A stretch of DNA of 64,000 nucleotides, taken from the NCBI RefSeq assembly GCF_019320115.1, contig NC_089584.1, positions 55,982,852 through 56,046,851 of the forward strand. Direction: 5' to 3'. The position numbers and the translations under genes were made by a program. Shown here piece after piece: positions 2,851 to 56,131 of this stretch. The notes under the pieces were generated by a model. That model did no database searches. It was given only the letters and a program-made list of their open reading frames with translations, and was not told where the DNA came from. Numbering within the stretch: position 1 is the first letter of the stretch; every line of letters begins with the position of its first letter. This DNA comes from Miscanthus floridulus. Its lineage: Eukaryota > Streptophyta > Magnoliopsida > Poales > Poaceae.

Positions 2851-3243
2851 ATCCCACCGCTTCATAGGATCCTCGAAGGCGCCACCATCTGCAATGCCTC
2901 CACCGGGGCGTCCGGGGACTACGCCATCGTCGTCAGCCACAACCCCGACAACGGTGCCTCCGCCGGGGCGTTTGGGGACTACGCCATCATCGTTAGCCGC
3001 AACCCCGATAGCGATGCCTCCAACAGCACGTCCGGGGACTATGCCATCATCACCAGCCACAACCCTAACAATAGCATAAGGGTAGGAAATGCCTCCTGCC
3101 AAAGGAGGAGCACAGCGGACGACGGCGTAGTCAACGACGTACGATGCCCACCGGCGCCTCTTCTCCTTCAGCAGCAGTGACTCCTCAGCAAGGGCGGCAT
3201 GCACCATCTCATCTATGCTGGATAACCTTCGACTCGACATCAC
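2815..3243 (-). CDS. Antisense ORF, 142 aa, Gly/Asp/Val repeats, unknown function
   Basis: ATG at 3243 on the minus strand, stop TGA at 2815-2817, open throughout. Copy B (23618-24046) has the same start, stop and length, although most other reading frames here are broken. Residues 1-35 (MMSSRRLSSIDEMVHAALAE, then a basic KEKRRRW patch) are non-repetitive. Residues 60-120 are three 20-residue repeats with core GVVADDDGVVPGRPGGG. A TATA-like TATTTAAA lies about 240 bases upstream at 3483-3490. I recognise no domain. GC-rich repeats can stay open by chance, so coding is possible but unproven. It could also be an exon of a longer antisense transcript. Confidence 0.4.
   Translation of the reverse strand: MMSSRRLSSIDEMVHAALAEESLLLKEKRRRWASYVVDYAVVRCAPPLAGGISYPYAIVRVVAGDDGIVPGRAVGGIAIGVAANDDGVVPKRPGGGTVVGVVADDDGVVPGRPGGGIADGGAFEDPMKRWDIRMSPMESVAR
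2885..3070. repeat. 60-bp tandem repeat, 3 units
   Basis: Three units beginning GCCTCCACCGGGGCGTCCGG, exactly 60 bp (20 codons). They are open on both strands: plus-strand reading DYAIVVSHNPDNG, minus-strand reading GVVADDDGVVPGRPGGG. They encode the repeat part of the 142-residue antisense ORF. Confidence 0.85.
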
Positions 3244-3482
3244 GCTCTAGATTCATGAGCAAATCTGTGAGTTTTCTCTCTCTCTGGCATTACTCTTCCT
3301 CACTCAGGAACCGCCGCGACGCATGGATGCATTTGGCGAAAAGGAAGGAGAAGGAGAAATAGCGGCTTAGAGGCAGAAGAGGAGGTGGGACGAGAACTCC
3401 CCTCCCCCTCCCTATTTAAAGAGGAGGCACTATAGCTAAGGAAAGGCGAAAGGTTGGACGAAAAACCCTCTCCCTTCCCCTC

Positions 3483-3490
3483 TTTAAATA
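3483..3490 (-). promoter_or_regulatory. Antisense TATA-like box (copy A)
   Basis: TATTTAAA on the minus strand, followed by AGAGGGGAAGGG. It lies about 240 bases upstream of the antisense ATG at 3243. A mirror-image TATTTAAA on the plus strand sits at 3413-3420, so the pair forms an inverted arrangement. Copy B keeps both. Position and motif only; no expression evidence. Confidence 0.35.
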
Positions 3491-5280
3491 CGGAATCAAT
3501 GCTGATTGATACCTGAGGGGACATGCCAAAACTGACGGGATGCGCCCCGGTCGATGAGGCATCCCCCTTGGTCAAACTGAACACTGCCAGGGTATGGCCC
3601 ACCATTGACCCGCTCCAGACGCGACAATTAAGGTGCCCACATAGGCAGACAACCCTTCGCCTCCCCATGCAGGACCATGGGACGATCCGATGACAGGACC
3701 TTTTGGATCTCCTAGGCCGGCCATTTGGCCCAGAAGAGATGGCGAACAAACGTCTAAAGAAAGATAAGCATCTCAGCCTTCTTACTTTACACGTTAAAAT
3801 TCATTCTCGAGCTTCCAACCCCGTCAAATGGCGGGAACACGAACATCACTCGGGGGCTGCCGAGGATGTCTACCAATCTAGACATCCTCCTCACCCGACC
3901 CCCTCCGTACACTTGAAACTAAGGACGTGAAATACGGGCATAAAACTTTGAGTAAAATTGGACAAACAAGTAGACCCTACGCCTCGGTAGCTACGGTGTT
4001 TCTGTTCACCAGAAAAATCATGCTCAACACCCCTCACGTCTCTAGCTTCAATGTCTGCCTTCTCAAGAAGGGTTCGGAGGGGTCTGCCTACAGAATCTCC
4101 CCCAAAGGAAAAGCTGTCAGGTTGCCCAAGTTAATTAAACGGCTCGGACCGCCACCGAGATACGAAAAACAAAGAATAGTGATTCTTATGCAGGTTACTC
4201 CAACCTCATCGCAAACATCAGGGTCCGAACCCCTCACGGACACATCTGGTAGGAGCTTTTCATCACTCATACCGCCAAGGTAATGTTACCGACCCCGCCT
4301 TCATTTCAATTATATTATACATATGCAAAACATCCCAATGCTTCGTGTCGCATCACGAAACGGCTGTCGCCTCATTCGATATAGGCGACCACAGGCCAAG
4401 GTTTGAAGGTCGGCCCGCGAAGGGCTCGAGGCCGCCTCATGCCGAACAGAGCCAGGGAGAAATAACCGAGACAAGCCCCAGCAGCCCTACCTGACCCTGC
4501 TTAGAAGCGGATAGGGACGTCTCGACCTTTTCTCGTTTGATTCTAACCTTGAGCCAAACCCACATAATCTCCATCGAGGAGAGGCCATCGGGCCTCCTGA
4601 GCCTATCGAATGGCTTGAGCATCTGCTGGGAGGCGGTTAAGAAGTTGTGGAGTGCCACCAGAGGGCTCTGTCGACCCCATCAGCAAATAATGGACCCGGA
4701 TTCCACACAAATGTACCCGTTAGTGAGCTCGTTGAGCGCGATACTCGAGCCATCGAGGCAAGTGTCGTTTACTCAGCCCCTCCAATTGCGAAAATCGAGG
4801 ACGGGGTAGCACGCAAATTATGGCTGATCCCTATCAGACCCTAACAACGCCTGGGGGCTCGAGCCAATCAATACAGGGACATAGGTTCAAAGGCCCCACC
4901 TTGTCGAGCCCATAGAGTCCCCGGTTGGGGATTTATGTTGGAAGACAGGGCAGGGAATAGTGCAATGTCATCCAAGGACTTCGTTGACCCTGTCACCAAA
5001 ACAACAGTTCTGATCTCTAGTAACCCCCGACCCCAGCAAATGCAGCGGGTCGGACCTTACTCGGGGGCTAGTTAAGGTACGGCTACCTCCTTTCTTTCTT
5101 TCAAAACAATCTCCTCGCATCAAGACCAGCAGCAAGATTCAGGGAACAGATTGGTAAGATCGCAAAAAATCAAACAAAACGAAATTATGAAGCAAAATCA
5201 CGAAATCGCATCCAGACTCGAAAAATACCGACACTTGTCCACATATTACATATAAGTTGTTCTCAAAATTATTCGACTAA

Positions 5281-38995: not shown

Positions 38996-41446
38996 ACGGC
39001 TAGGCCTCCATATAGATTGTGGTAGTTGGCAAGTGGTGATAGCCTTGTCCATCCTCTGTATTCCACCATGATAGGTCTAGTTATTAAATCATACGGCTCA
39101 TGGCAGTCCTCGTGTCATCCACCAAAATTCCTATTTTGGGATGTGACTTAGAAAACACTAAATAACATTAAATGGTTTTATTATTTTTCTAAAATTTCCC
39201 AACATTAGTTAAGTTGTTGGTATTCTAGATAGTGGAAAATGTGAGTTTCTAAAATTTTTGCAACTCAATTTAATGGTTTGTTGCATTTATGCCTTTTCAT
39301 AGTGTTTATGTTTGAAAAATAAATTTAAATGTTTTCAAATATGCATAGGGTTTGATCCTAATTTCATCTCCCCAAATACCAAATCAATATCTAAAACTCC
39401 AATCAACTCTTTTGCTGACAACCTACAAAAATCTAGCATGACCCATTCTCTCTTTCTCTCCTTTCTTTTCATTCTCAAGCTCTTAGCCAATTTGGTGTCC
39501 ATGAGTTCTTTGGGCCAATCTTTTCTCCTCTCTCATACACTCATACAAATGAATCTCAAATTGAGTTGAAGACCACACTTTCACCTATCCCAGCATGGCA
39601 ACCCATACTTCTTCTTTCCTTTGCTAATGGACCAAAGCCATTCGTTTATGCACCTTCTCCCATCTCATGCCCAAATCCATAATATTAGCCCACTTCCAAA
39701 CCTGCCTTGCAACCCCTCTTTTCACTAATGGATCTAGCCAAGTGTCTTCTCTTGTTTTGGGCCAAGTCCGGATTAGGCCAACACACCTCTTGTAACAACA
39801 TGGGTTTTTGGTGCAACCCAAAAATACGAACTTTTTAAATTTTTCCATGCAATGTGTGTTGAATGTAGTCGCTAGGTCAAATCCAAGTAAAACTATTCCC
39901 ATCCTGACCTAACTTCAAAATCCAAATTTCAAAATCATTTTTGCAATCAACACCATGACAAGAGGTATTTTCTAAACAAAATATTTTTGGAAGCAAATAA
40001 GCGTTGGTCGAACTCAAGCTCCACTCCAATTCAACTTGTCAACTCTCATGATTTTGATTTACATCTAAACCAAAAACCCTAACTCTATTCCCTCCCCTCG
40101 GTTCAAAGAGACTTTGCAATATAACTTGATGCACTCATATAATCTAGTTGCATATTGGAGTGCCTTGAGTTAGTTTTTATTGGGTGTTTATTGTTTGATT
40201 GTAGGACAAAATAGTTGTAGAAGAAATAGAAAATCCATTAGAAGAAAAGGAAAAACCCTTTATCCTTTATCCCTAAACCAGCCCCGCCTGCCCTCCTTTT
40301 CCCTCATCCCACGTTGGGCCAGCAAGCCCCGCTTGCCCACGAGCAGCCCTACCGGCCCAACCCATCCTGCACCTTCCCTCTTGGGCCTCGGCCTCCCTCA
40401 TGGCCCAGCCACAGCCCAGCTGACCCAAGCCACGAGCGCACCCACGCCAAAACCCTAGAGTCACGTCGACGTGCACCCAAGAGCTACCGCCACCGCTACC
40501 TATCTAATCCCATGCCTTGGTGTCCATATCAGCAGCCGCGGGATTGACACCGCTTGTCCTAGAGCTTGCATACATGCCAGAGATGGCCGCTCTGCCCTAG
40601 AACCCTAGCATGGCACCACTATAAGAAGAGCAGCCACCGTCGCCCTCACTCTTTTCCCCATCAGCCGCCATGAGCTCCCTTGCCTCCACCCTCTTCCTCA
40701 TCATGAACTGGAGCATTGCTGCTCCTTGTCGAGGGCAGCACCACCCTAATGTGTCCCTGCCTCACCGTGCCACCATGACCCTACTTCGGCACCACCCGAG
40801 CTTGCCACAGCATCGAGCCACATGACTTCATGATGTAGGAGCCCTACCTTGCTGTCATGCTGGACCTCATTAGCAATGCACCGAAGCCCCTTCTCCATCC
40901 CTGCAACACCGAGGTAGGGACCTAGAGTGATGTCTCTACACCTCATCATCATAGCCGAGCCAAGCCCAATAACCTGATGCGCCCTCTACTTCAACACGTG
41001 GACATGCCTTCACCATCAAGCCCTGGCGACATCCGTCTCATCGCCTCAACCCTGAGCCTACCTCCATGACACCGAGCTGCTCTCCATGGCCATGAGAAGC
41101 ATCGATTGCCCATGACCATGCTGTCGACCTCACCATGCTCTGCCTCATCCTTAAGCTCCTACACCAGCACACCAGCCTCACCATGGAGGAGCTACACCAA
41201 GCCCCTAAGCACCCTAGCACCCTCTACTTTGGCCTATACCACATCACTGAGCCAAGCCATGATGACCAAGCCTTGACCTAAGAATGTCCTACTAATAGTG
41301 ATCACGATGATGACCTAGCTGCGACCTACCTCAACCTGGCCACCCTGCTCTGCCATCGGCGACCACGGCGTCACCCAGACCACCCCCAACAAGCCTCGAC
41401 CTCTCCAAGCCATGATCGTGGACATCATGTCTGGTTGCTGCCCCTT
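38996..41446. other. Unassigned repeat DNA left of the Tekay insertion (copy B)
   Basis: Counterpart of 18193-20666, no gene seen. It is interrupted at 41446 by the Tekay element and resumes at 56137, so this repeat continues in 56137 onward. Confidence 0.45.
41442..41446. repeat. Target-site duplication CCCTT, left
   Basis: CCCTT immediately before TGTAATAG. It matches 56132-56136 exactly. Five bases is the usual length for Ty3/gypsy integrases. Confidence 0.9.
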
Positions 41447-44400
41447 TGTAATAGAACCGACCAAATCATAAGAATGTAAGTACAAAAACAATCACCAAAG
41501 CGATCAAATTCCTGTACTTAAGCTCCCATAATCCTGGTAGTCCGGAAATCACGAAGGATTTCAATCAACTCTCGACATACAAACCAAGATCATAGTGATT
41601 CAACACAACACATCATCCATTACAACATTTCATAAGTAGCATTTGACTTACATCCATCAGACTTTAAATAGAATATTACAAACCAAGTTTGAGTGTGCGG
41701 AAGCAACATAGTTTAGTACAAAACATCATAGTTTTCAAATACATTGCCAAGTTTGAGTCATGTTCCCCAAAAGCATTATTAGGTATGAGAATTAGTAGAG
41801 ACCGCGCCCAACGGTCTAGTCTTCATCCCTAGCTGAGAGAAGGCAGTACTTGCAGCAACCAAAGTAGAATTGGTCATCTGCAATAGGTGGGAGATAAACC
41901 CTAAGTACGAGAAGGTACTCAGCTAGACTTACCCGACAAAACCAGAAATAAAAGACACCAAGGATCATGCAAGGCTTATGAGGTGGGCTAGCTTGACACA
42001 GTTGCATAAAAGAGCTTATGATTATAGTAACCAATTTAAACTTAGCATCAAGATTATCATCATTTACCTATCCACTAGATTAGCACCTGTACTAGAGCAC
42101 TCACTTATTAGGAGCAAACAATATTAACCATAGCAGGTATAATAAGGTTGTCATCATCATATCAACATTTCCGAACCATTAGGTTATTTAGTGTATCTAC
42201 ATTGGAGATAAGCCCGTCAAGTTCTCACTAACCGGGAGAGACGGTGACTCGAATCGAATTACAACTCAGCTGAGGGGGTATTCCTAACTCTCACCCTTTC
42301 ATACTTAGCAAGGGTAGCCGTGGGTCACCTTTGGAACAACTTAGGAACCAAATTTGCGGGTTCGATCAGCGCCAGCACTCTCAGGGATTACCCTTCTGCC
42401 AAGACGATCAGGACTTTTAAATCACCTGCCCTTGGACTCACGCCTACGGCTCCCTTCCGAGGCGCACTTTATACTTATCGACTCCCGGCCTAAGGTGAGC
42501 TACTCGGCTTCGCGGTCGGTCTTCAGACACGGCCAACTAAGAGAGAGGCATGCGTTCAACATGAATAGGAAAGGCTCCAAGAATCAGTCCTTAAGTGACA
42601 CAGACGGAGTCACTGCAAACCGGCAAGCCTCCATCCGGTCTTCATTTCAAATTAAGACTGGTTCTTTTCCACGATAGCAAATATAGCCAACCATGCCACA
42701 TGTATCTTCCTATATCTCACAGGTGACAGGAAATCACCTGACTTCTATCATGTTTAAGCAGGGCTAAGCACTACACGAGCCTGAGCTACATAGGATTTAG
42801 GGTAACAATATCTGGACAAGGATTGGGTAACCAATGCAGCAAGTGTTTGCATCCAATACCTAAACTTAATGCAACAACATATATAATAATAATACTGTAA
42901 CTGCATTTCAGAAATTAGGAGGCTTAATATGCTCTAGGGCTTGCCTTTCACAAAGTTGCAAGGACGGTGATCCGGGCACTCAACGGTGACCTCGTCTGGC
43001 ACTTCTCCTAAAGGCTGCTCCTCCTGAATCTTCGGTGTCGGCTGCTGCTGCTCGCTCAGTTCCTCGAATTCCAGCACGGTCACTTCTTCCGGTACACCTA
43101 TTGCATGCTGATGCACAAGATAAATATCATGGATGCATAAGGAATGACATGATGCTCAATGATGAATGAATCACAGTAAGTGTTTACTAAAAACATCACT
43201 GGACACTTGTTTACTGAGTAAGACTAGCCCTATTAAAATCACTTTAAAACAGGTATCTAATTTAACTTGAAGAACAAGATCAACTTACCTAACTTGCATA
43301 ACCTAAGATAAAGATGCTCATCTTCAGTTAAAGGCCTAATACCTAGGAACATTACCACAAACTTAGAAATAGTAAAGGCATACATAAATCAACATTTAAA
43401 GTTTCATATGCACACAAGTAGTCCATTAATTCAATCACAACAAGAGTTATACAAATCCAAATGACTTGCATGAGGACATTCTGGAAAGCTTATGAAATTC
43501 TCTACAAATCATTTGTAAACATCAAAGCATGATTCTTACGTTAACCAAATCGAATTCCAGTAAGCCTAGAATCTGTCCAGAAATAACAGGGTTACTAAAT
43601 TAATTATTTAATGATGATGCAAAAGCATAATTGGACCAACCCAAGTTTACCAACATGTTTTTCATACCCAAGAAACATCAGAAAGTATAGTGCCAACTTC
43701 TAAATAAATTATTTAATATCCTTTTCCAATTTATTTAGTTAATTAGGTGATTAAAGCAATATATAGTAAAACTATTCATAAAAATCTACAAAATTTACAG
43801 TAGCTATCTCATGCTTCACATAGACTACCACAAAAATTTCAAAGCCATTGAGCAAGCAAAACTTGCTGTATCCAAAATAACAGGTGGCATGCCTATTTTT
43901 AGCATAATTAGGAAACCCTAATGAAAAGTGTCAAGCAATAGATTTCACATTTTTCCTAGCATCATTCTAGCATAAGAACCTTACTCACCAAATTTTACCT
44001 ATACTGGATCTATAGAAAAATTATGAAAATTCACACAAGATCCATCCATTAATAAAAAGAAATTCTATAACTCAAAAACTATACATGCACTAGCTCTGAA
44101 ATTTTAACCAAAGCTTCTACTAAGCAGTAATAGATTACCCACAAAATTTCATAATTTTTGGACCACAGAAACTAAAGATAAAATTTAAACAAGTTTGCAT
44201 GCATCTAAAAACACATTTCAAAGTCCTATTTCATTCATCCAAAATTTCTAAAACATGTGCTCATATAATCTTTTTATTAAATACTAGACATTACTAGGAA
44301 CTCAACAAAATTGGAACCATAGCATTTGGATCTACCAAACTTGAGTTACACATTTTTGAATCTATACATAAATCTTGTGAAAAACAATTAAACAAAACAA

Positions 44401-45728
44401 GAAGGAAAACCTAACTCTACTGCTGGGCCAGCCCGAAGGTCATGGCGGTCTCAGCTCTGGCGAGGTCACGCCCATGGCGGTGATGGCGGAAGTGGCCAAA
44501 GCGCCCTTACCATGACTCAAACGGCTCGGAGAAGAGGTGGAGGACGTAGAGGCGAACACGGCGGAGCTACGGTGAAGACGTCGCGCGCGTTTTTGTGGCG
44601 GTGAGCAAGCGAGGCGACGGCGGAGCAATGGCGGAGCGGTGGCTCCGCTGCTTCTGCACTTCGACTGAGTGGAGTAGGTGAAGGAGGAGGGAATAAGAGT
44701 GAATGGAGAGGCAGGAGGATGCGGCTTCAAGTGGAGAACACCGGCAGCGGGTTCAGGCCAGCCACGGGACGTGGCTTGGGCGGTCAGTCAGCCATCGACG
44801 CACGGCGCCATGCGGCCGTCAAATTCTGAATCGGCAGAGCACTGTAGAGTCTGAATTTTTCGTTTCAGTAACCAATTGAACCGACTGACAGGCGATGTTT
44901 GACAGGGATTATCTCCTAAACCGTGACATATTAGTGAAAGAAATGAACATGAAAGTTGTAGCCCGTACTTCCATCTTCAATTTCTATTTAAATACCAAGG
45001 ACTAATTCTCAACGGATACAGAGTAAAATCAAGCCAAAGTTGGCTCGATCAAACTAGAAATGTACTTAGGACTTAGAAATTTTTTCAAATGTTGAATCCA
45101 CCATCAATGCTAACTTGTGGGTCCGTTTTGAACATGTTGTGCACATTTTCATGACTTGGTTTCTAAACAAAGTTTGTTCCTTATTAAATTTGCTACAACT
45201 TTGCTTTAGGTTGCGCAAGCATGCATAGACTCGAAGCTGTACTTTTAAAATAGTCAAACAAAAAGGGTTTAGGGGTCAAAATTGATCAAACCATGACTTG
45301 GGAACCTAATTAGTCAAAATGATCCACATGAACATTGTTCCTAATGACATTCTAGGTGTAACTAAGTTACTTAGGATGATTATTAGCCACACCACACATT
45401 GGTCACACAAGAATCAAGCATTGTATGTACTGAAACAATGAAAAACACATGAATTGTTACATTTGTTTCATAGTCATGTTTCACATGTTTCCTGATCGTG
45501 TTGCATAGTACTACTAACCATGTTTCACTAAAGTGTGTTGCATATGTTGCACTTGAGTGTTGCACCCTATTCATTTCATAAACAAACATCCATGATATAG
45601 GGCAATATAATATGTTACAATGTTTCAAGAGCATGTTTCATGCAATATGAACTCATAATTGGATGAATGATGCTCATGTTTATGAAATGCAAGTGCAAAT
45701 GTGGAAGCCAAACACCTGGGGTGTTACA
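41447..45728 (-). repeat. 3' LTR of Tekay element, 4282 bp
   Basis: In element direction it starts TGTAACACCCCAGGTGTTTG and ends GGTCGGTTCTATTACA. It is 17 bp longer than the right LTR, mainly because of a piece (CGACTGAGTGGAGTAGGTG near 44662) missing there. A small acidic ORF frame in element direction (about 43116-42934) has no ATG. A Ser/Arg-rich frame lies at 44730-44440. Neither is convincing as a gene. Confidence 0.92.
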
Positions 45729-45750: not shown

Positions 45751-45924
45751 TCATCCCGAGATTTGGAAAGCGTACCATTTAATATAGAAAGCCGGATAAT
45801 TTTCCTTTAGATAATCTTCCCGCTCCCAGGTTGCATCCCGTTCACTATGATTACTCCAAACTACCTTGTATAACTTAACTACTCGCGTACGAGTCACTCT
45901 TTCTTGAGTATCCAGAACTTGCAT
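45751..45924 (-). pseudogene. Tekay chromodomain at the polyprotein C-terminus
   Basis: In the frame after the 1-bp loss near 45940, the minus strand reads RTRVVKLYKVVWSNHS, then RDATWEREDYLKENYPAF, ending in TGA at 45751-45753. The V-W-x-N/H-H...ATWE..D.....YP pattern is a chromodomain, about 50 residues. In chromoviruses this module is fused to integrase and is thought to steer insertion to chromatin carrying particular histone methylation. The single-base loss puts it out of frame with the integrase here. Confidence 0.82.
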
Positions 45925-47280
45925 GGGCTTCTCTTCATAAGATCAGATTTCAAGTTGACTTTCCTTGTTGCTATTCTTTCCTCGGGAATACGGAGACACT
46001 TCTTCAGCTGGGACACATGGAATACCGGGAATATAGCTCCCATCTCACATGGTAGATCGAGTTTATAGGCTACCCTTCCACTTTTTTCGATAATGCAGTA
46101 AGGCCCCACATATCGAGGCTCAAGCTTCCTTTTGATTCCAAAACGTTTTACTCCTTTCATAGGGGATACCTTCAGATAAACATGATCACCTACTTCAAAC
46201 TCAATAGGTTTTCTTCTCTTGTCAGCATAGCTCTTTTGTCTAGCCTGTGCGGCAGTCATATTCTTCTGTATAGTTTGGACTTGCTCTTCGGCTTCTTTTA
46301 CAAAGTCAATACCATAGAATCTTCTTTCCCCGAGTTCCACCCAGTTCAAAGGAGTTCTACACTTGCGGCCATAAAGAGCTTCAAAAGGAGCCATTTTGAT
46401 ACTCTCTTGATAATTGTTGTTATAAGAGAATTCAGCGAGAGGTAACCAGTCCTCCCAAGAGCCTTTGCAAGAGATAAGACAAGCCCTAAGCATGTCTTCA
46501 AGAATTTGATTAACACGCTCAGTCTGTCCTGATGTTTGCGGATGATAGGCAGAACTGCAGATTAAATGAGTGCCAAGATTCTGATGTAAGCACTCCCAAA
46601 AGCGAGCCGTGAATTGTGGTCCTCTATCTGAAACAATGGATTTGGGTACACCATGGAGATGTACCACTTGTTGAAAATAAATCTCAGCATAATTGTGTGG
46701 GTGATAGGTAGACTTGACCAGAATAAAGTGAGCGGATTTAGTTAGATGATCTACGATAACCCAGATGGAATCACAACCCTTTTTGGTAGTGGATAATCCA
46801 ACAATGAAATCCATGCTAATTTCTTCCCACTTCCAGCCAGGAATAGAGAGTGGCTACAATAATCTGGGCCTCATGTGAATAGCCTTGACTCTACAACAGT
46901 TATCACACCTTGCCACGTAGGCTGCGATTTCTTTCTTCATCTTGGTTCACCAATAATACAGCTTGAGATCTTGATACATTTTATTGCTACCAGGATGGAT
47001 GGACAATTTAGAAGAATGGGCTTCAGCCATAATTTGATTTCTAAGTTCTTTGTCTTTGGGTACCACAAGCCTATCATTAAACCAGAGGATTCCTTTGTCA
47101 TTGACCCTAAAGTGTTTGGTCTCTTTCTCTTTCATCTTCCACTTGATGTGAAACACACCCACATCAGTCTTCTAGAGTTCGATAATTCAACTTCTAAGAG
47201 AGCAATCCACAGTGATATTGTGGAGTACTACAGGATGAAGGAGGTGTGCCAGATGAAAGTCTTCACTAACCAAGGAATTG
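45894..47280 (-). pseudogene. Tekay integrase
   Basis: The HHCC region lies at about 47060-46890 (AEAHSSKLSIHPGSNKMYQD, then ARCDNCCRVK). The core carries MDFIVGL (first Asp, 46814), VSDRGPQFTARFW (second Asp) and TERVNQILEDML (Glu). The GPY/F-type C-terminal part reads RYVGPYCIIEKSGRVAYKLD. The frame from 46814 to 45894 is open for 306 codons. Upstream are TGA at 46947 and TAG near 46855. One base seems lost at about 45939-45942, just before the chromodomain. Confidence 0.88.
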
Positions 47281-48476
47281 CAATGGGCCTTTTTGCTTAA
47301 GGCATCAGCAACCACATTTGCCTTACTAGGATGGTAGTGCACTTGAAGGTTGTAGTCTTTGATTAATTCTAACTATCGTTGTTGACGCATGTTCAACTCG
47401 GGTTGAGTAAAGATATACTTGAGACTTTTATGGTCAGTACAGATGTTGCACACATTACCAAGCAAGTAATGTCTCTAGATCTTTAGGGCATGAACAACTG
47501 TGGCTAGCTCTAAGTCATGGGTAGGATAATTGACTTCATGTTTTCGAAGCTGGCATGAAGCATAAGCAATTACTCGGCCCTCCTGCATCAGAACACACCC
47601 CAAACCGGTGCCACAAGCATCACAATAGACATCAAAAGGCTTCTCGACGTCAGGTTGTTCCAATACAGGAGCAGAGGTTAGTAAGGTCCACAAAGTGTGG
47701 AAAGCCTCTTCACACTTCGGAGTCCACACAAACTTCTCATCTTTTTGAAGTAGTCGAGTCATGGGCTTGGCGATTTTAGAGAAATTCGGGATAAAGCGAC
47801 GATAATAGCCAGCCAAACCCAGGAAACTTCGAACTTCTGTGACCGTAGTAGGTGCCTTCCACTCAAGGACTTCTTGCACCTTAGTAGGGTCAACCAAAAT
47901 TCCATCTCCAGATAACACATGACCTAGAAAAGGTATCTTGTTCAACCAGAATTCGCACTTGCTAAACTTAGCATAAAGCTAGTTGTCACGTAACCGAGTT
48001 AAAACAATTCTCAGATGTTCAGTATGCTCTTCTTCATTATGAGAATATACAAGGATATCATCAATGAACACAATGACAAACTTGTCCAATTCCGACATGA
48101 ATACAGAATTCATTAGGTACATAAAGTGTGCCAGAGCATTTGTCAACCCAAAGGACATGACGAGGTATTCGAACAATCCATAACGAGTAGAGAAAGTTGT
48201 CTTAGGTATATCTTCAGGATGAATTTTGATCTGATGGTAGCCAGACCTCAAATCGATCTTGGAGAATACTTTAGCTTTGGAAAGTTGATCAAACAGAATA
48301 TCGATGCGAGGAAGAGGGTATTTGTTCTTGATAGTAACAGCATTAAGGGGGCGATAATCCACGCACATGCGCAGAGACTCGTCCTTCTTCTTCACAAAGA
48401 TAGCCAGACAACCCTAAGGTGAAGAACTAGGCTGAATCAAACCTTTCTTCAATAGCTCACTCAACTGACTCTTCAG
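47281..48476 (-). pseudogene. Tekay reverse transcriptase and RNase H
   Basis: RT from about 48470: [48 protein letters not shown], and the catalytic [13 protein letters not shown] (FIDD near 48068-48057). The thumb/connection follows ([17 protein letters not shown]). RNase H starts near 47660 with [16 protein letters not shown] and [15 protein letters not shown], ending LSKKAHC near 47300. Frame intact apart from TAG codons near 48415, at 47979 and 47475, and near 47365. All catalytic acidic residues I can check are present. Confidence 0.9.
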
Positions 48477-49085
48477 CTAAGCCAACTCATTGGGCGGCAT
48501 TCTATAGGGCCTTCGAGAAATAGGAGCCGTACCTGGAATGAGTTCTATCTTGAATTCTACATCACGGTCCAGAGGTAATCTAGGCAAGTCATTAGGGAAG
48601 ACATCTGGAAACTCATAGACAACCGGTAGATCCTCAATGGCTTTGGCTATGGTGGCATTGACTGTATTGTGGATAGAGATATCATGAGGTAACTGCACTA
48701 GAAAACCCTTCTTATCCATAGGATCCCTCAACATTACCACACGGGTTGATGTATCGATCAACACTCCATTCCCACTCATCCACTTCATTCCTAGGATTAC
48801 ATCGATTCCTACCCCCGGTAGAACTACAAGATCCATAAGGAACTCTCGATCCCCAATCTCAAGCTTTACATCTTTAACTACTTGGTTAGTCAGGATATTA
48901 TTTCCAGCAGCACTAATACAATACCCACCCTTGACACTTGTAATCACATTCATTTTATGCTCAGATGCAAAAGTAGAACTCACAAAGGAATGTGAAGCAC
49001 CCGAATCAAAGAGCACAACTGCAGGGTGATCATTAACAAGGAACTTACCAGCGATGACCACTTCTCCAGCAGGAATTTCCTCCAC
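48477..49085 (-). pseudogene. Tekay protease and linker to RT
   Basis: Retropepsin with [15 protein letters not shown] (catalytic Asp near 49007), followed by [16 protein letters not shown] (hydrophobic-GMDWL-like motif). The linker contains [20 protein letters not shown]. It ends at TAG 48477-48479. Same frame as gag. Confidence 0.88.
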
Positions 49086-50123
49086 AGTCGTGTAGTGAAC
49101 ACGCCCCTAACGGACGTTTCCTTGAGCATTCTGCTTGGAAGGATAGGGACACTTATTTGCCCAATGACCCGGCTGGTTATAGTTCTAGCATGGCCTGTTA
49201 GCTGGTGGGGCATTGGAGCTGCCCTACCTAGAGGTATTCTTTGGCAAGGAAATTGTGTACCCCTTGTGGAAACCAATTTTAGCTTGATTCTTTTTCTGAG
49301 GTGGGTGGTACCAGACATTAGCATTGGGTGGACGGTACTGGGTCTTGGATACCATTGGAGCCTTAGACTGAGAAGCACCAGCCTCAAAGTTTCTTTTATG
49401 GTTCTTGGAAGCAGCATATATCTTGTCATTGTTCTCCTGGGTTAGGGTGTCACTAATAAACTCATTGAAGGTGACACACTTGCAGTTACCCATAGACTTC
49501 ATCAGTTTAGGGGAAAGTCCCCTCTTGAAGCTAGCTATTCTCTTGGCGTCAGTATCGACGAACTCGGGAGCATACCTTGCCAGGTTGTTGAATGCCTGGA
49601 GGTATTCATTAAGACTCTTGTTGCCTTGGGTTAGCTTCATAAACTTGGTATGCTTAATGGCCATGAGACCAGGAGGGATAAAGTGTCCCCGGAAAGCTGT
49701 CTGGAACTGGTCCCAAACTATCTCAACGTTTGTAGGGAAAGTGGTCCTATGATGGGTCCACCAGATGCCTGCAGGGCCTTGGAGCTGGTGTCCTGCATAC
49801 GAAGCCTTCATTCCTTCAGTCAAATGGAGCAATCCAAACCTTTGCTCTATCATGCTCAACCATTCATCAGCCTGTAATGGTTCTTCTGCCTCACGAAAGA
49901 TAGGAGGCTTTGTGTCCATGAAGTCCTTAAAGCTGTTGTACTGGTTTGGCTCGGGTCCCTGGCGGACATGCCGATCCTCACGGTTAGCCATATGGCGCAT
50001 AGCCTCAGCTAGCATGCGCTGACTTTCCACGACTGTCTGCATTAGCTCAGCTGGTGTGGGCGGTGGAGGAGGTGGTTGTTCCTCATCTCCCATGCTACGA
50101 CTGTGACGAAGGTTATAATCCAT
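49086..50123 (-). pseudogene. Tekay gag with zinc knuckle
   Basis: ATG at 50123 (MDYNLRHSRSMGDEEQPPPP). The capsid part reads FMDTKPPIFREAEEPLQADE, then GPAGIWWTHHRTTF and KSLNEYLQAFNNLARYAPEF. The zinc knuckle near 49195-49155 should read C-x2-C-x4-H-x4-C. Here it reads C, TAG, N, Y, NQPGHWANKC: the second Cys is Tyr and a TAG falls inside. Further TAG codons are at 49224-49226 and near 49107. The start is supported by the clean Pro-rich N-terminus common in this clade. Confidence 0.88.
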
Positions 50124-51850
50124 CTACAAAATGTATAGCCAATGAGCACTAACGATGTGGAAACTTTTGTAGATGAATTGTATAATTATGCCAAACTGAT
50201 TCCATTGGAAAGAATGCATTTAAAATCAACAGAGGCACAATCATTCATCACAATCACACAACTCATCAAGCGCATCAATTGACACATAAATGCGATGAAC
50301 TTAACCAACAACGAGATCCATAGACCGCAAAGATGGAATACATCAAAAGCTCACATACGTGGGGCATAACCCGTTCGATAGGTTACATCGAAGCCATAGA
50401 GGTTCCAAACTTACATCAAGGGTAACATAGGGTTCGATATTACATCCCAACGATTAACTTGATACAAAGCTACTCGTTCATGAATGAGGATCAACAAAAG
50501 ACTAGCTCTAGCGTATTAGCTAAGTAGTAAGCTAAACTACGCATCATCCTCGGAGTCAGTGTCGAAGATCTCTCCTCCATCTTCATCACTAGTAGGCTCT
50601 AACTCCTCATCTTCCTCCTCATTAGGTGGAATGTCCTCAGGTCCATTGACCTCAATGCCATCATCACCTTCAGCCATGATGACACCAGAGCCCATCTCAT
50701 CCTCATCATTAGGTGGCAGGAGAGGGTGAAGTTGATTGTGTAACAGGTGAACCTCCTCATGGAGATGGTCATTGTACTCTTTGGCAACTGCCACTTGTTG
50801 CTCTAGCTCCACCTATCGCGCTCTCAACACATTCTCTTCGTGCCAGGCTTCATTCCATTGGTTCATTACGTGAATCAACATACGTTCACAGTTGCGGTGA
50901 GCAACTATCAACCTCTGAACCTCAAGGGTCTCTTGGTCCCGTTCCTATGTTACTTGCTCCAAACGGTGCTGAGCCGCATTCCTCTCAGCAGTCACCCGGG
51001 CTAGCTCTGTCCTCAGCCTTTCCGCCTCAGTAGGCTCAGGACGGGGCTCATGAGGAGCTAAATGGTGATGAGGTGCCCTGCCTCCAGTGGACTTGCGAGC
51101 AGTGAGTTTCATGCACGCCATCTGTAGTAAAAAGTTACAACGTAAGGGGAGAATTATTTAAGGGATACGAAATTTAATTAGTCGGGACAATCATATTTTA
51201 AAGGAGGGAGTAATGCAAGAAATGCCATGTATGCTTGAACATGATGCATGCACGATCCGTACGTCCTCACAAACCTAGAAAAATTGAAAGGCTAGCAAAA
51301 TATACGGTGGCATACATACGTTCTCTCGTATACGGTAGCTAGTCGATCTACAACGATACGTTGTTAGTGTACCTGCAGAAAATTTCATTTCAGCCCAGTA
51401 ATTTCCCAAAAAGGCATGTAAACTAAATACTTTCATACATACACCCCCCGATGCATATACTCTAGTATCACAGCTACCCATCAGAGATACCCACATTTAA
51501 GTACTCTCATAGATACATGATTGAACATATAAGTATGCGAGCAACCACAACTACTCTCCCCTAGACCGACGGTTGGGCGGTCATGCTCTCACAACTCCCA
51601 CTTACCAGAGCGTAGAGGTATTTTGATCCATACATTACCACCCAAACAGATGGCATCCATACAATAGCACGCCGTATGGACAATGAAACAGAAATAAGCA
51701 GGAACCCCCAAGTTAGTACTTTAATAAGCCACCTAAGAGTCCTTATTTGGGCATAAGGGATATGACCACTGGCAATACTTAGTATTTAATTTAGAATTTT
51801 CACAAATACTTTTGTTTTAAATACACAAATGACATGTTTAGTGTCGAATC
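50124..51850 (-). other. Tekay leader between primer site and gag
   Basis: About 1.7 kb. Apart from the ORF at 51121-50537, I see no gene in 51122-51850 or 50124-50536. A long leader of this kind is common in the clade. Confidence 0.6.
50537..51121 (-). pseudogene. Extra Tekay ORF: histone H3-tail-like N-terminus, coiled coil, acidic tail
   Basis: A 195-codon frame in element direction, ATG at 51121, stop at 50537, ending 413 bases before gag. The N-terminus reads MACMKLTARKSTGGRAPHHH. After Met removal, residues 1-21 align without gaps to histone H3, and 14 of 21 are identical by my count (A1, K4, T6-G13, A15, P16, L20, A21). Codons 2 and 3 (TGC, ATG) are one C-to-T step each from Arg and Thr codons, the H3 residues. 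Residues about 30-130 are heptad-rich (TEAERLRTELARVTAERNAA; VELEQQVAVAKEYNDHLHEE). The last 50 are strongly acidic (DEELEPTSDEDGG). Two in-frame TAG (codons 59 and 103), no frameshift. Function unknown. It would be a nuclear or chromatin-facing accessory protein if the mimicry is real. Confidence 0.6.
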
Positions 51851-51864
51851 TTGCTCTGATGCCA
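51851..51864 (-). other. Primer binding site, initiator-Met tRNA type
   Basis: Minus strand TGGCATCAGAGCAA, two bases (GC) after the 5' LTR end. The common plant iMet site is TGGTATCAGAGC, so one transition separates them. Confidence 0.85.
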
Positions 51865-51866
51865 GC

Positions 51867-54800
51867 TGTAATAGAACCGACCAAATCATAAGAACGTAAG
51901 TACAAAAACAATCACCGAAGCGATCAAATTCCTGTACTTAAGCTCCCATAATCCCGGTAGTCCGGAAATCACGAAGGATTTCAACCAACTCTCGACATAC
52001 AAACCAAGATCATAGTGATTCAACACAACACATCATCCGTTACAACATTTCATAAGTAGCATTCGACTTACATCCATTAGAGTTTAAATAGAATATTACA
52101 AACCAAGTTTGAGTGTGCGGAAGCAACATAGTTTAGTACAAAACATCATAGTTTTCAAATACATTGCCAAGTCTGAGTCATGTCCCCCAAAAGCATTATC
52201 AGGTACGAGAACTAGTAGAGACCACGCCCAACGGTCTAGTCTTCATCCCCAGCTGGGAGAAGGCAGCACTTGCAGCAACCAAAGTAGAACTGGTCATCTG
52301 CAACAGGTGGGAGATAAACCCTGAGTATGAGAAGGTACTCAGCTAGACTTACCCAACAAAACCAGAAATAAAAGACACCAAGGATCATGCAAGGCTTATG
52401 AGGTGGGCTAGCTTGACATAGTTGCATAAAAGAGCTTATGATTATAGTAACCAATTTAAACTTAGCATCAAGATTATCATCATTTACCTATCCACTAGAT
52501 TAGCACCTGTACTAGAGCACTCACTTATTAGGAGCAAACAATATTAACCATAGCAGGTATAATAAGGCTGTCATCATCATATCATCATTTCCGAACCATT
52601 AGGTTATTTAGTGTATCTACATTGGAGATAAGCCCATCAAGTTCTCACTAACCGGGAGAGACGGCGACTCGAATCGAATTACAACTCAGCTGAGGGGGTA
52701 TTCCTAACTCTCACCCTGACATACTTAGCAAGGGTAGCCATGGGTCACCTTTGGAACAACTTAGGAACCAAATTCACGGGTTCGATTAGCGCCAGCACTC
52801 TCAGGGATTACCCTTCTGCCAGGATGATTAGGACTTTTAAATCACCTGCCCTTGGACTCATGCCTACGGCTCCCTTCCGAGGTGCACTTTATACTTATCG
52901 ACTCCTGGCCTGAGGTGAGCTACTCGGCTTCGCGGTTGGTCTTCAGACACGGCCAACTAAGAGAGAGGCATGCATTCAACATAAATAGGAAAGGCTCCAA
53001 GAATCAGTCCTTAAGCAACACAGACGGAGTCACTGCAAACCGGCAAGCCTCCGTCCGGTCTTCATTTCAAATTAAGACTAGTTCTTTTCCACGATAGCAA
53101 ATATAGCCAACCGTGCCACATGTATCTTCCTATATCTCGCAGGTGACAGGAAATCACCTGACTTCTACCGTGTTTAAGCAGGGCTAAGCACTACACGAGC
53201 CTGAGCTACATAGGATTCAAGGTAACAATATCTAGACAAGGATTGGGTAACCAATGCAGCAAGTGTTTGCATCCAATACCTAAACTTAATGCAACAATAT
53301 ATATAATAATAATACTGTAACTACATTTCGGAAATTAGGAGGCTTAATATGCTCCAGGGCTTGCCTTTCACAAAGTTGCAAGGACGGTGATCTGGGCACT
53401 CAACGGCGACCTCGTCTGGCACTTCTCCTGAAGGCTGCTCCTCCTGAATCTCCGGTGTCGACTGCTGCTGCTCTCTCGGTTCCTCGAATTCCAGCAGGGT
53501 CACTCCTTCTGGTACACCTATTGCATGCCGATGCACAAGATAAATATCATGGATGCATAAGGAATGACATGATGCTCAATGATGAATGAATCACAGTAAG
53601 TGTTTACCGAAAACATCACTGGACACTCGTTTACCGAGTAAGACTAGCCCTATTCAAATCACTTTAAAACAGGTATCTAATTTAACTTGAAGAACAAGAT
53701 CAACTTACCTAACTTGCATAACCTAAGATAAAGATGCTCATCTTCAGTTAAAGGCCTAACACCTAGGAACATTACCACAAACTTAGAAAATGTAAAGGCA
53801 TACATAAATCAACATTTAAAGTTTCATATGCACACAAGTAGTCCCTTAATTCAATCACAACAAGAGTTATACAAATCCAAATGACTTGCATGAGGACATT
53901 CTGGAAAGCTTATGAAATTCTCTACAAATCATTTCTAAACATCAAAGCATGATTCTTACGTTAACCAAATCGAATTCCAGTAAACCTAGAATCTGTCCAG
54001 AAATGACAGGGTTACTAAATTAATTATTTAATGATGATGCAAAAGCATAATTGGACCAACCCAAGTTTACCAACATGTTTTTCATACCTAAGAAACATCA
54101 GAAAGTATAGTGCCAACTTCTAAATAAATTATTTAATATCATTTTCCAATTTATTTAGTTAATTAGGTGATTAAAGCAATATATAGTAAAACTGTTCATA
54201 AAAATCTACAAAATTTACAGTAGCTATCTCATGCTTCACATAGACTAGCATAAAAATTTCAAAGCCATTGAGCAAGCAGAACTTGCTGTATCCAAAATAA
54301 CAGGTGGCATGCCTATTTTTAGCATAATTAGGAAACCCTAATGAAAAGTGTCAAGCAACAGATTTCACATTTTTCCTAGCATCATTCTAGCATAAGAACC
54401 TTACTCACCAAATTTTACCTATACTGGATCTATAGAAAAATTATGAAAATTCACACAAGATCCATCCATTGATAAAAAGAAATTCTATAACTCAAAAACT
54501 ATACATGCACTAGCTCTGAAATTTTAACCAGAGCTTCTACTAAGCAATAATAGATTACCCACAAAATTTCATAATTTTTGAACCACATAAACTCAAGATA
54601 AAATTCAAACAAGTTTGCATGCATCTAAAAATAGATTTCAAAGTCCTATTTCATTCATCCAAAATTTCTAAAACATGTGCTCATATAATATTTTTATTAA
54701 ATACTAGACATTACTAGGAACTCAACAAAATTGGAACCATAGGATTTGGATCTACCAAACTTGAGTTACACATTTTTGAATCTATACATAAATCTTGTGA

Positions 54801-56131
54801 AAAACAATTAAACAAAACAAAAAGGAAAACCTAACTCTACTGCTGGGCCAGCCTGAAGGTCACGGCGGTCTCAGATGCGGCAAGGTCACAACCATGGCAG
54901 TGACAGCGGAAGTGGCCAAAGCGCCTTTACCACGACTCAAACGGCTCGGAGAAGAGGTGGAGGACGTAGAGGCGAACACGGCGGAGCTACGGTGAAGACG
55001 TCGCGCGTATTTTTGCGACGGTGAGCAAGCGAGGCGACGGCAGAGCAATGGCGGAGCGGTGGCTCCGCTACTTCTGCGCTTTGAAGGAGGAGGGAATAAG
55101 AGTGAATGGAGAGGCAGGAGGATGCGGCTTCAAGTGGAGAACACCGGCAGCGGGTTCAGGCCAGCCACGGCGCGTGGCCTGGGCGGTCAGTCGGCCATCG
55201 ACGCACGGCGCCACGCTGCCATCGAATTCTAAATCGACAGAGCACTATAGAGTCTGAATTTTTCGTTTTAGTAACCAATTGAACCGACTGACAGGAGATG
55301 TTTGATAGGGATTATCTCCTAAACCGTGACGTATTAGTGAAAGAAATGAACATGAAAGTTGTAGCCCGTACTTCCATCTTCAATTTCTATTTAAATACCA
55401 AGGACTAATTCTCAATGGATACAGAGTAAAATCAAGCCAAAGTTGGCTCGATCAAACTGGAAATGTACTTAGGACTTAGAAAATTTTTCAAATGTTGAAT
55501 CCACCATCAATGCTGACTTGTGGGTCCTTTTTGAACATGTTGTGCACATTTTCATGACTTGGTTTCTAAACAAAGTTTGTTCCTTATTAAATTTGCTACA
55601 ACTTTGCTTTAGGTTACGCAAGCATGCATAGACTCAAAGCTATACTTTTAAAACAGTCAAACAAAAAGGGTTTAGGGGTCAAAATTGATCAAACCATGAC
55701 TTGGGAACCTAATTAGTCAAAATGATCCACATGAACATTGATCCTAATGACATTCTAGGTGTAACTAAGTTACTTAGGATGATTATTAGCCACACCACAC
55801 ATTGGTCACACAAGAATCAAGCATTGTATGTACTGAAATAATGAAAAACACATGAATTGTTACATTTGTTTCATAGTCATGTTTCACATGTTTCCTGATC
55901 GTGTTGCATAGTACTACTAACCATGTTTCACTAAAGTGTGTTGCATATGTTGCACTTGAGTGTTGCACCCTATTCATTTCATAAATAAACATCCATGATA
56001 TAGGGCAATATAATATGTTACAATGTTTCAAGAGCATGTTTCATGCAATATGAACTCATAATTGGATGAATGATGCTCATGTTTATGAAATGCAAGTGCA
56101 AATGTGGAAGCCAAATACCTGGGGTGTTACA
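51867..56131 (-). repeat. 5' LTR of Tekay element, 4265 bp
   Basis: Same ends as the left LTR. A 71-codon acidic frame (53536-53321) parallels that of the left LTR but lacks an ATG. The differences between the LTRs are mostly C/T and G/A. Confidence 0.92.

Follow-up and report, generated by a model that had tools for sequence, protein, structure and literature searches.

An H3 tail-like N-terminus in the ORF0 protein of Tekay-type LTR retrotransposons, a possible mimic of the host histone

In a 64,000-nucleotide stretch of the Miscanthus floridulus genome (hereafter called the window), we found an LTR retrotransposon with an accessory reading frame upstream of gag, ORF0, whose predicted product starts like histone H3. 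Aligned from its Met, this start, MACMKLTARKSTGGRAPHHHLA, shares 14 of 21 residues with H3 1-21, among them the unbroken stretch T6-G13 and the pairs A15-P16 and L20-A21. The resemblance, pointed out in a preliminary description of the window, is real, and it recurs both in database relatives of ORF0 and in further families of elements from this genome. We propose that the N-terminus of ORF0 is an H3-tail mimic and that such tails might occupy host proteins that bind residues 1-10 of H3, an explanation that in our view has about an even chance of being right.

The element lies on the minus strand of the window, as do all features described below for it, and is a Ty3/gypsy LTR retrotransposon with both LTRs, a target duplication, a primer site and the gag-PR-RT-RH-INT order. 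Its 5′ LTR (51867..56131), with TGTAAC...TTACA ends, pairs with the 3′ LTR (41447..45728) at 96.15% identity over 4,287 columns, and AAGGG 5-bp repeats flank both LTRs on their outer sides. A primer-binding site, TGGCATCAGAGC (51853..51864), which we take to be of the initiator-Met-tRNA type, is located between the 5′ LTR and ORF0. Pfam searches identified gag (49224..50123; Retrotrans_gag, 6e-20), an aspartic protease (48477..49085; RVP_2, 4e-30), a reverse transcriptase (47979..48395; RVT_1, 5e-28), an RNase H (47475..47945; RT_RNaseH_2, 1e-25) and an integrase comprising the core and the SH3 part (45894..46814; SH3_Tf2-1, 2e-23; rve, 2.5e-5, below cut-off), all in separate frames. We assign the element to the Tekay type of chromodomain retrotransposons, a name based solely on the presence of a chromodomain, long LTRs and a 5′ ORF. 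ORF0 is found in sense orientation between the primer site and 5′ LTR on one side and gag on the other, an arrangement common to many copies, and the 5′ accessory ORFs (ORF0) published for Tekay-type elements sit at the same location.

ORF0 spans positions 50537..51121 (194 codons and a stop codon), within which the H3-tail-like segment (51056..51121) consists of the Met and the 21 residues that align with H3 1-21. The preliminary description had frame, strand and coordinates right, and our recount of the identities gave the same 14 of 21 at the same positions. It had reported a frame of 195 codons, which is present but not open in the window copy, as translation reveals in-frame TAG codons at codon 59 (50945..50947) and codon 103 (50813..50815). 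Because of these two stops the window copy must be considered dead; its open part in the ORF list consists of the final 91 codons only. The H3-like match is unique within the window. The second-best match to H3(1-21) reaches 7/21 among the 2,934 ATG frames and 8/21 among the 127,870 positions of all frames, and the best matches in ten base-shuffled windows range from 7 to 10.

At E<=1e-3, a protein search with the window ORF0 yielded 177 homologues, and the best of them matches the full length of the query at 91% identity. With two further searches, a total of 221 proteins was fetched, the listings covering the best 120 of 177 matches in the first search and the best 120 of 442 in one of the others. 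Of those 221, 88 fall short of the N-terminal anchor and 11 start after the H3 Met, leaving 122 proteins that extend upstream of the linker by 20 residues or more; since the queries contained the tail, these do not represent an unbiased ORF0 sample. A Met is present at the H3 start in 121 of the 122. The exception, P0206, was misplaced by the anchor and reads MARTKTIARKSTGG after an upstream stretch. The commonest number of identities to H3 1-21 is 16 (35 proteins) and the maximum 18 (2 proteins), and relatives match H3 better than the window copy does. It had been suggested that codons 2 and 3 of the window copy moved away from the H3 residues by C-to-T steps, which fits with the presence of R2 in 90 and T3 in 109 of the 122 relatives.

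At the other positions, the H3 residue is found in the following numbers of the 122 proteins: A1 in 117, K4 in 108 (R in 13), T6 in 112, A7 in 113, R8 in 92, K9 in 119, S10 in 118, T11 in 61 (A in 56), G12 in 91, G13 in 118, A15 in 91, P16 in 114, R17 in 70, Q19 in 67, L20 in 118 and A21 in 112. R, L or T predominate at position 5. K14 is replaced by R in 112 relatives and kept in 2, and K18 is replaced by H in 117 and kept in none. For a group analysis, three indel proteins and P0206 were removed; 111 of the resulting 118 sequences fall into groups of at least four, and the majority sequences of the five groups match H3 at 14-18 of 21 positions. In 233 of 322 cases, departures of the tail from its group majority are one C:G to T:A step away, and much of the scatter of the tail sequences among relatives fits with decay. 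Lysine codons are unchanged by C-to-T decay, and therefore the persistence of K4 and K9 in dead copies proves little by itself. In one relative, P0132, the ORF0 N-terminus is directly followed by residues (QKKNQAKTGFRKGYTISLP) similar to the end of the window gag frame, which may represent either an internal deletion or a spliced product. Scans of viral contigs with P0013, alignment A1 and gag, and a single scan of genome contigs, retrieved no relative.

The relation to H3 was also recovered in the PDB. Searching 177,635 distinct PDB sequences with the relative P0122 returned histone H3 as the top match (E 5e-5), and the best 60 of 132 rows are all H3 or H3-variant chains. A profile, A2 (eight rows, made from 8 of 12 excised pieces), likewise has H3 as its best match in the PDB (E 1.9e-5), and H3 is the top match of the decayed window copy (E 0.041). 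The likeness is one to the H3 N-terminal tail, with up to 18/21 identities among relatives. In five of those (P0001, P0002, P0013, P0122 and P0005), Pfam revealed no domain above cut-off and no histone family, and together with the one long helix that was modelled this indicates that a histone fold after the H3-like tail is absent.

We then turned to a sample of the host genome, comprising 29 stretches (284 kb) taken by position. Using three relatives as tblastn queries, we found ORF0 at L006 (34-37% identity) and L023 (43-46%), as well as a weak match at L005. The ORF0s of L006 (MAKIKITARKSTGPHGVPRHQLAP; 178 codons) and L023 (MARAKMTPHKSTGPKGVPRHQLAP; 189 codons) are open. A scan of ATG frames identified another one at L028, which starts with MARTKQTPRKRT and has a different body and a frame that breaks later. 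Of note, the broken L028 ORF0, at about 3000-4219 on the minus strand of its stretch, contains a run of acidic residues and another stretch that differs from the window copy. The three elements possess downstream, Tekay-like gag genes related to that of the window (33-38% identity); the match is thus not confined to a single decayed copy, being found in database relatives and in three sampled elements. In searches of the PDB, L006, L023 and L028 taken singly gave no H3 match at E<=1.

When all 14,727 ATG frames of the window and the sample were scored against H3(1-11), the four ORF0 starts came out on top with 9, 8, 8 and 7, and the next score was 5. As a control, 300 scrambled H3(1-11) peptides reached scores of 4-7, with 7 in four of 300. 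The ungapped comparison with H3(1-21), in which the window scores 14, L028 10, L006 and L023 9 and the next frame 8, is less clean than that with H3(1-11), as scrambled peptides reached 9 over 21 positions in 6 of 300 cases; an additional residue between positions 12 and 13 of L006 and L023 disrupts the ungapped 21-position count. L006 retains K4 and the TARKSTG motif, not R2 and T3, and L028 retains ARTKQT and K9, with P at position 7 and R at position 10. As read from these sequences, which part of the H3 tail is retained varies between element families.

The ORF0s of L005 and L026 have a coil and an acidic tail and no H3-like start, showing that not every ORF0 requires the tail. Their N-termini read MAAPVGCENFLMVFGTPTLLWRV... 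in L005 (5314-5760, minus strand) and MATPALPP...FLHVFGTPTLLWRV... in L026 (from about 8446, plus strand). The combination of different N-termini with a similar coil and acidic tail suggests that the N-terminal module is exchangeable. In L024, inspected for the ORF0 of the L011 element, helix-like frames without an H3-like start are visible by eye upstream of gag. Altogether, the H3-like tail is present in four of the seven elements whose 5′ region was examined.

In the window, L006, L023 and L028, in-frame stop codons are located 1-13 codons upstream of the H3-like Met with no Met in between, and the H3-register Met is therefore the first start in these four copies. For the same reason, we rejected an extended N-terminus, MILPL...LLQ, as the true start. 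In 55 of the 122 database relatives, an additional in-frame Met precedes the H3-register Met by 4-12 residues, and its use would bury the tail.

An AG ends 0-3 nucleotides before the ORF0 ATG in the window, L006, L023, L028, L005 and L026, and in the latter two the ATG adjoining it is not the first of its frame. In the window, a candidate 3′ splice site, TTTTTACTACAG (51122..51133), ends directly before the ORF0 ATG and ranks 4 of the 111 leader AGs by a simple pyrimidine score. A candidate 5′ splice site, CTG/GTAAGT (51600..51608; 51605), is near-consensus and, scored by its match to the consensus, the joint best of 127 GTs. The presence of AGs directly before start codons and of a near-consensus donor hints that ORF0 may be reached by splicing, and the gag and ORF0 proteins might both be expressed by way of alternative splicing. 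The gag and ORF0 start codons of the window (50123 and 51121, respectively) come directly after an AG, as do the ORF0 ATGs of L028, L005 and L026; the AG before the window gag ATG ranks 14 of 111 by pyrimidine score. We also considered that the tail had been captured along with the splice site of an H3 5′-UTR intron, and we discarded this idea because the tail-less ORF0s of L005 and L026 also have their ATG right after an AG. A host source gene for the tail was dropped from consideration as well, no host H3 gene having been reached.

An AlphaFold2 model of the relative P0013, calculated with 21 sequences (pTM 0.39), predicts that residues 1-31 lack regular structure and that they are followed by a 103-residue helix (residues 32-134) and an unstructured acidic end. 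The means for ten-residue blocks are 94-99 for residues 31-130 and 50-56 from residue 141 on. By correspondence with P0013, the long-helix region of the window copy covers 50720..51028, and according to its sequence and to the block means the acidic C-terminal tail without predicted structure covers 50540..50719. The coiled coil of the preliminary description fits with this predicted single helix, its oligomerization being presumed, and the acidic tail that was placed after it is present.

We next compared the window, L006 and L023 copies by pairs for signs of selection. Synonymous sites are near saturation (pS 0.61-0.80), a level at which NG86 distances are rough, and nonsynonymous differences amount to 0.26-0.32 in the tail and 0.40-0.45 in the body. 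All three pairs show a significant synonymous excess in the tail (p 0.006, 0.019 and 0.0006), and the body has one as well (p 0.0003 or less), in a test in which pairs share sequences, counts are rounded and one of the three copies is dead. This excess indicates that the tail is constrained as protein and that ORF0 is a selected protein. Moreover, tail identity is higher than that of the rest of the protein between L006 and each of four relatives (p 0.0085-0.017, in comparisons that share sequences) and between L006 and L023 (p 0.005), while for L023 against the four relatives the difference reaches 0.05 in one of four only. Within the close family, conservation of the tail does not exceed that of the helix (mean between-group differences of 0.195 and 0.164, respectively), and comparing within-group with between-group changes revealed no extra constraint on the tail. 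The dN/dS check that had been recommended for this region thus yields a synonymous excess in the tail for three pairs but no excess over the helix in the close family. Selection for H3-likeness as such is suggested by these data.

How such a protein might act can be outlined from its layout. An initiator Met before Ala is removed, so that the mature ORF0 protein would begin with A-R-T-K like H3. The long helical stalk may pair two or more copies, which would display several free tails at once, with the acidic tail outside. K14 and K18 of H3 are acetylation sites, and their replacement in ORF0 eliminates both; with K4 and K9 kept, the ORF0 tail would resemble a methylatable H3 tail that is unacetylatable at these two sites. 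The tails might occupy H3K9 methyltransferases of the SUVH4/KYP type, K9me2 readers, for instance ADCP1 or CMT3, or proteins that read the K4 end. H3K9me2 is described as being written by SUVH4/5/6, read by CMT3 and ADCP1, and maintaining transposable-element silencing, and ADCP1 contacts R2, K4 and K9me2 of H3 with no direct contact to A7, R8 and S10 being described (PMC6318295). The ORF0 protein could serve as a pseudo-substrate decoy, with weaker silencing of the element as the outcome, or alternatively as a bait that recruits such host proteins to the element particles. Given that R2, K4 and K9, which ADCP1 contacts, are kept in most relatives and that K14 and K18 are lost, our first choice is a decoy or bait directed at host H3-tail proteins, and the titration of host readers appears the most likely among the mechanisms considered. 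A more general version, in which grass chromoviruses carry a silencing decoy made of multiple copies of a methylatable H3 tail devoid of K14 and K18, diverting K9 methyltransferases and K9me2 readers, with an N-terminal module exchangeable between element families, is put forward tentatively, as we deem it more doubtful than probable.

Among the alternatives, the one that survives best is that of a generic basic tail, acting in nuclear import or nucleic-acid binding, whose likeness to H3 is irrelevant to function. The segment is indeed rich in R, K and H, and 5′ accessory proteins of other Tekay elements are predicted to be nuclear in the published description (PMC11728184). However, uncharged residues (A1, T6, S10, G13, P16, L20 and A21) and the exact N-terminal place are kept in most relatives, and the synonymous excess in the tail also argues against this possibility, which we regard as rather unlikely.

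The ORF0 tail might instead bind the chromodomain of the element's own integrase, methylated or not, and organize the pre-integration complex. Both partners would be encoded by one element, as the chromodomain announced at 45924-45751 is present (45751..45924). It is weak but clear, with a Pfam Chromo score of 19.5 bits (E 1e-3) against a cut-off of 25.1 and with the Clr4 chromodomain as its top PDB match (E 2e-4), and it lies in a frame other than that of the integrase ORF. In the alignment with Clr4 the cage W and TWE are kept and an H occupies the third cage position; the first cage position (Y24) falls outside the alignments, even with six extra residues, and a Y is found near it in the sequence. 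With W45 and TWE kept and Y48 lost, the domain resembles those of group II (CHD_II), a likeness that concerns the integrase and not ORF0. Chromodomains of this group are described as lacking Y24 and usually Y48 (PMC3350952). The H at the third aromatic position and the published absence of the first in group II make the usual reading of methyl-lysine unlikely, contrary to the earlier proposal that the element's chromodomain reads methylated K9 of its own tail. The cpSRP43 chromodomains, in which both cage tyrosines are replaced, have been reported to bind unmethylated, arginine-rich ARKS-like motifs (PMC4660199), and contact may therefore occur without methylation. The changes of A7 and S10 around K9 in L028 speak against a role of this type, and we consider such self-tethering unlikely.

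A tether of another kind, linking particles to host H3-tail binders to steer insertion and not to counter silencing, would agree with the adaptor-like layout of a tail on a predicted helical stalk and with the mostly heterochromatic location of plant chromoviruses as described in PMC3350952. Nevertheless, unless readers are multivalent, an H3 mimic in free form would vie with nucleosomes for a given reader and would not form a bridge to them. Besides, the Tekay group of sunflower that possesses a 5′ accessory ORF, whose sequence is unrelated, is described as having inserted mostly in chromosome arms and the groups without it near centromeres (PMC11728184). This explanation appears quite improbable to us.

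We attach a similarly low probability to the view that a fragment of an H3 gene was acquired once as a start codon and leader, and that its H3-likeness is now without a role. That the tail is not above the helix in conservation in the close family, and that families retain different parts of the H3 tail, would fit with such a fossil. The significant synonymous excess in the tail goes against it, as does the higher tail identity relative to the rest between L006 and the four relatives and between L006 and L023 (for L023, in one of four comparisons only). Finally, chance similarity might be invoked for a short segment of biased composition, whose window copy alone has an E value of 0.041 in the PDB, but it is refuted in our view by the PDB matches of P0122 and A2 to H3, the uniqueness of the match in the window and the top four places for H3(1-11) among 14,727 frames, which leave it a negligible probability.

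Part of this system has precedents. ORF0s were published for Retrosat2, RIRE3 and RIRE8 (PMC3485330) and 5′ accessory ORFs for sunflower and other Tekay elements (PMC11728184), and reviews cover accessory ORFs (PMC7264820) and host factors (PMC12786077). The ORFs described for Tekay-type elements (Retrosat2, RIRE3, RIRE8, ZMsat2, Sorsat2, Brasat2 and the sunflower Tekay group 2) occupy the same place, upstream of gag on the same strand. Retrosat2, RIRE3 and RIRE8 have long LTRs as here, and their ORF0 diverges more than gag-pol (PMC3485330), and the protein of sunflower Tekay group 2 is described as having helices and a biased composition, as is the case here (PMC11728184). The published accounts of Tekay ORF0s, with which ours was compared by description only, propose enzyme folds or dsRNA binding and describe no H3-like N-terminus; the word "histone" does not occur in the main texts of PMC3485330 and PMC11728184. 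Among the open-access titles and abstract openings listed, we found no H3-tail mimic in a retrotransposon.

A viral counterpart is the NS1 protein of influenza A H3N2, a parasite protein with a stretch resembling the H3 N-terminus and a proposed interference with host H3 readers (PMC12937675). As described there, the NS1 stretch is located at the C-terminus of the viral protein, whereas in the retrotransposon ORF0 the 21 residues are found at the true N-terminus, in register and before a long helix. ORF0 and viral histone mimicry are thus already known, and an H3-tail mimic in the ORF0 of a retrotransposon appears to be new. The loop of H3K9me2 and DNA methylation is described as restraining plant retrotransposons (PMC6318295), and our comparisons suggest that the element imitates the mark by which its host silences it. 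If true, an element protein that imitates the peptide of the H3K9me2 loop would represent a direct counter-move by a transposon targeted through chromatin, and the unexplained ORF0 of Tekay-type elements would gain a testable role.

Lastly, a unit of ~20.7 kb is present in tandem in the window (6-20666 and 20719-41446), with blocks that are 91-97% identical. The repeat comes with four copies of a 1.35-kb segment, which may be LTRs, and the homology of the second copy of the unit stops at 41446, precisely where the element is inserted.
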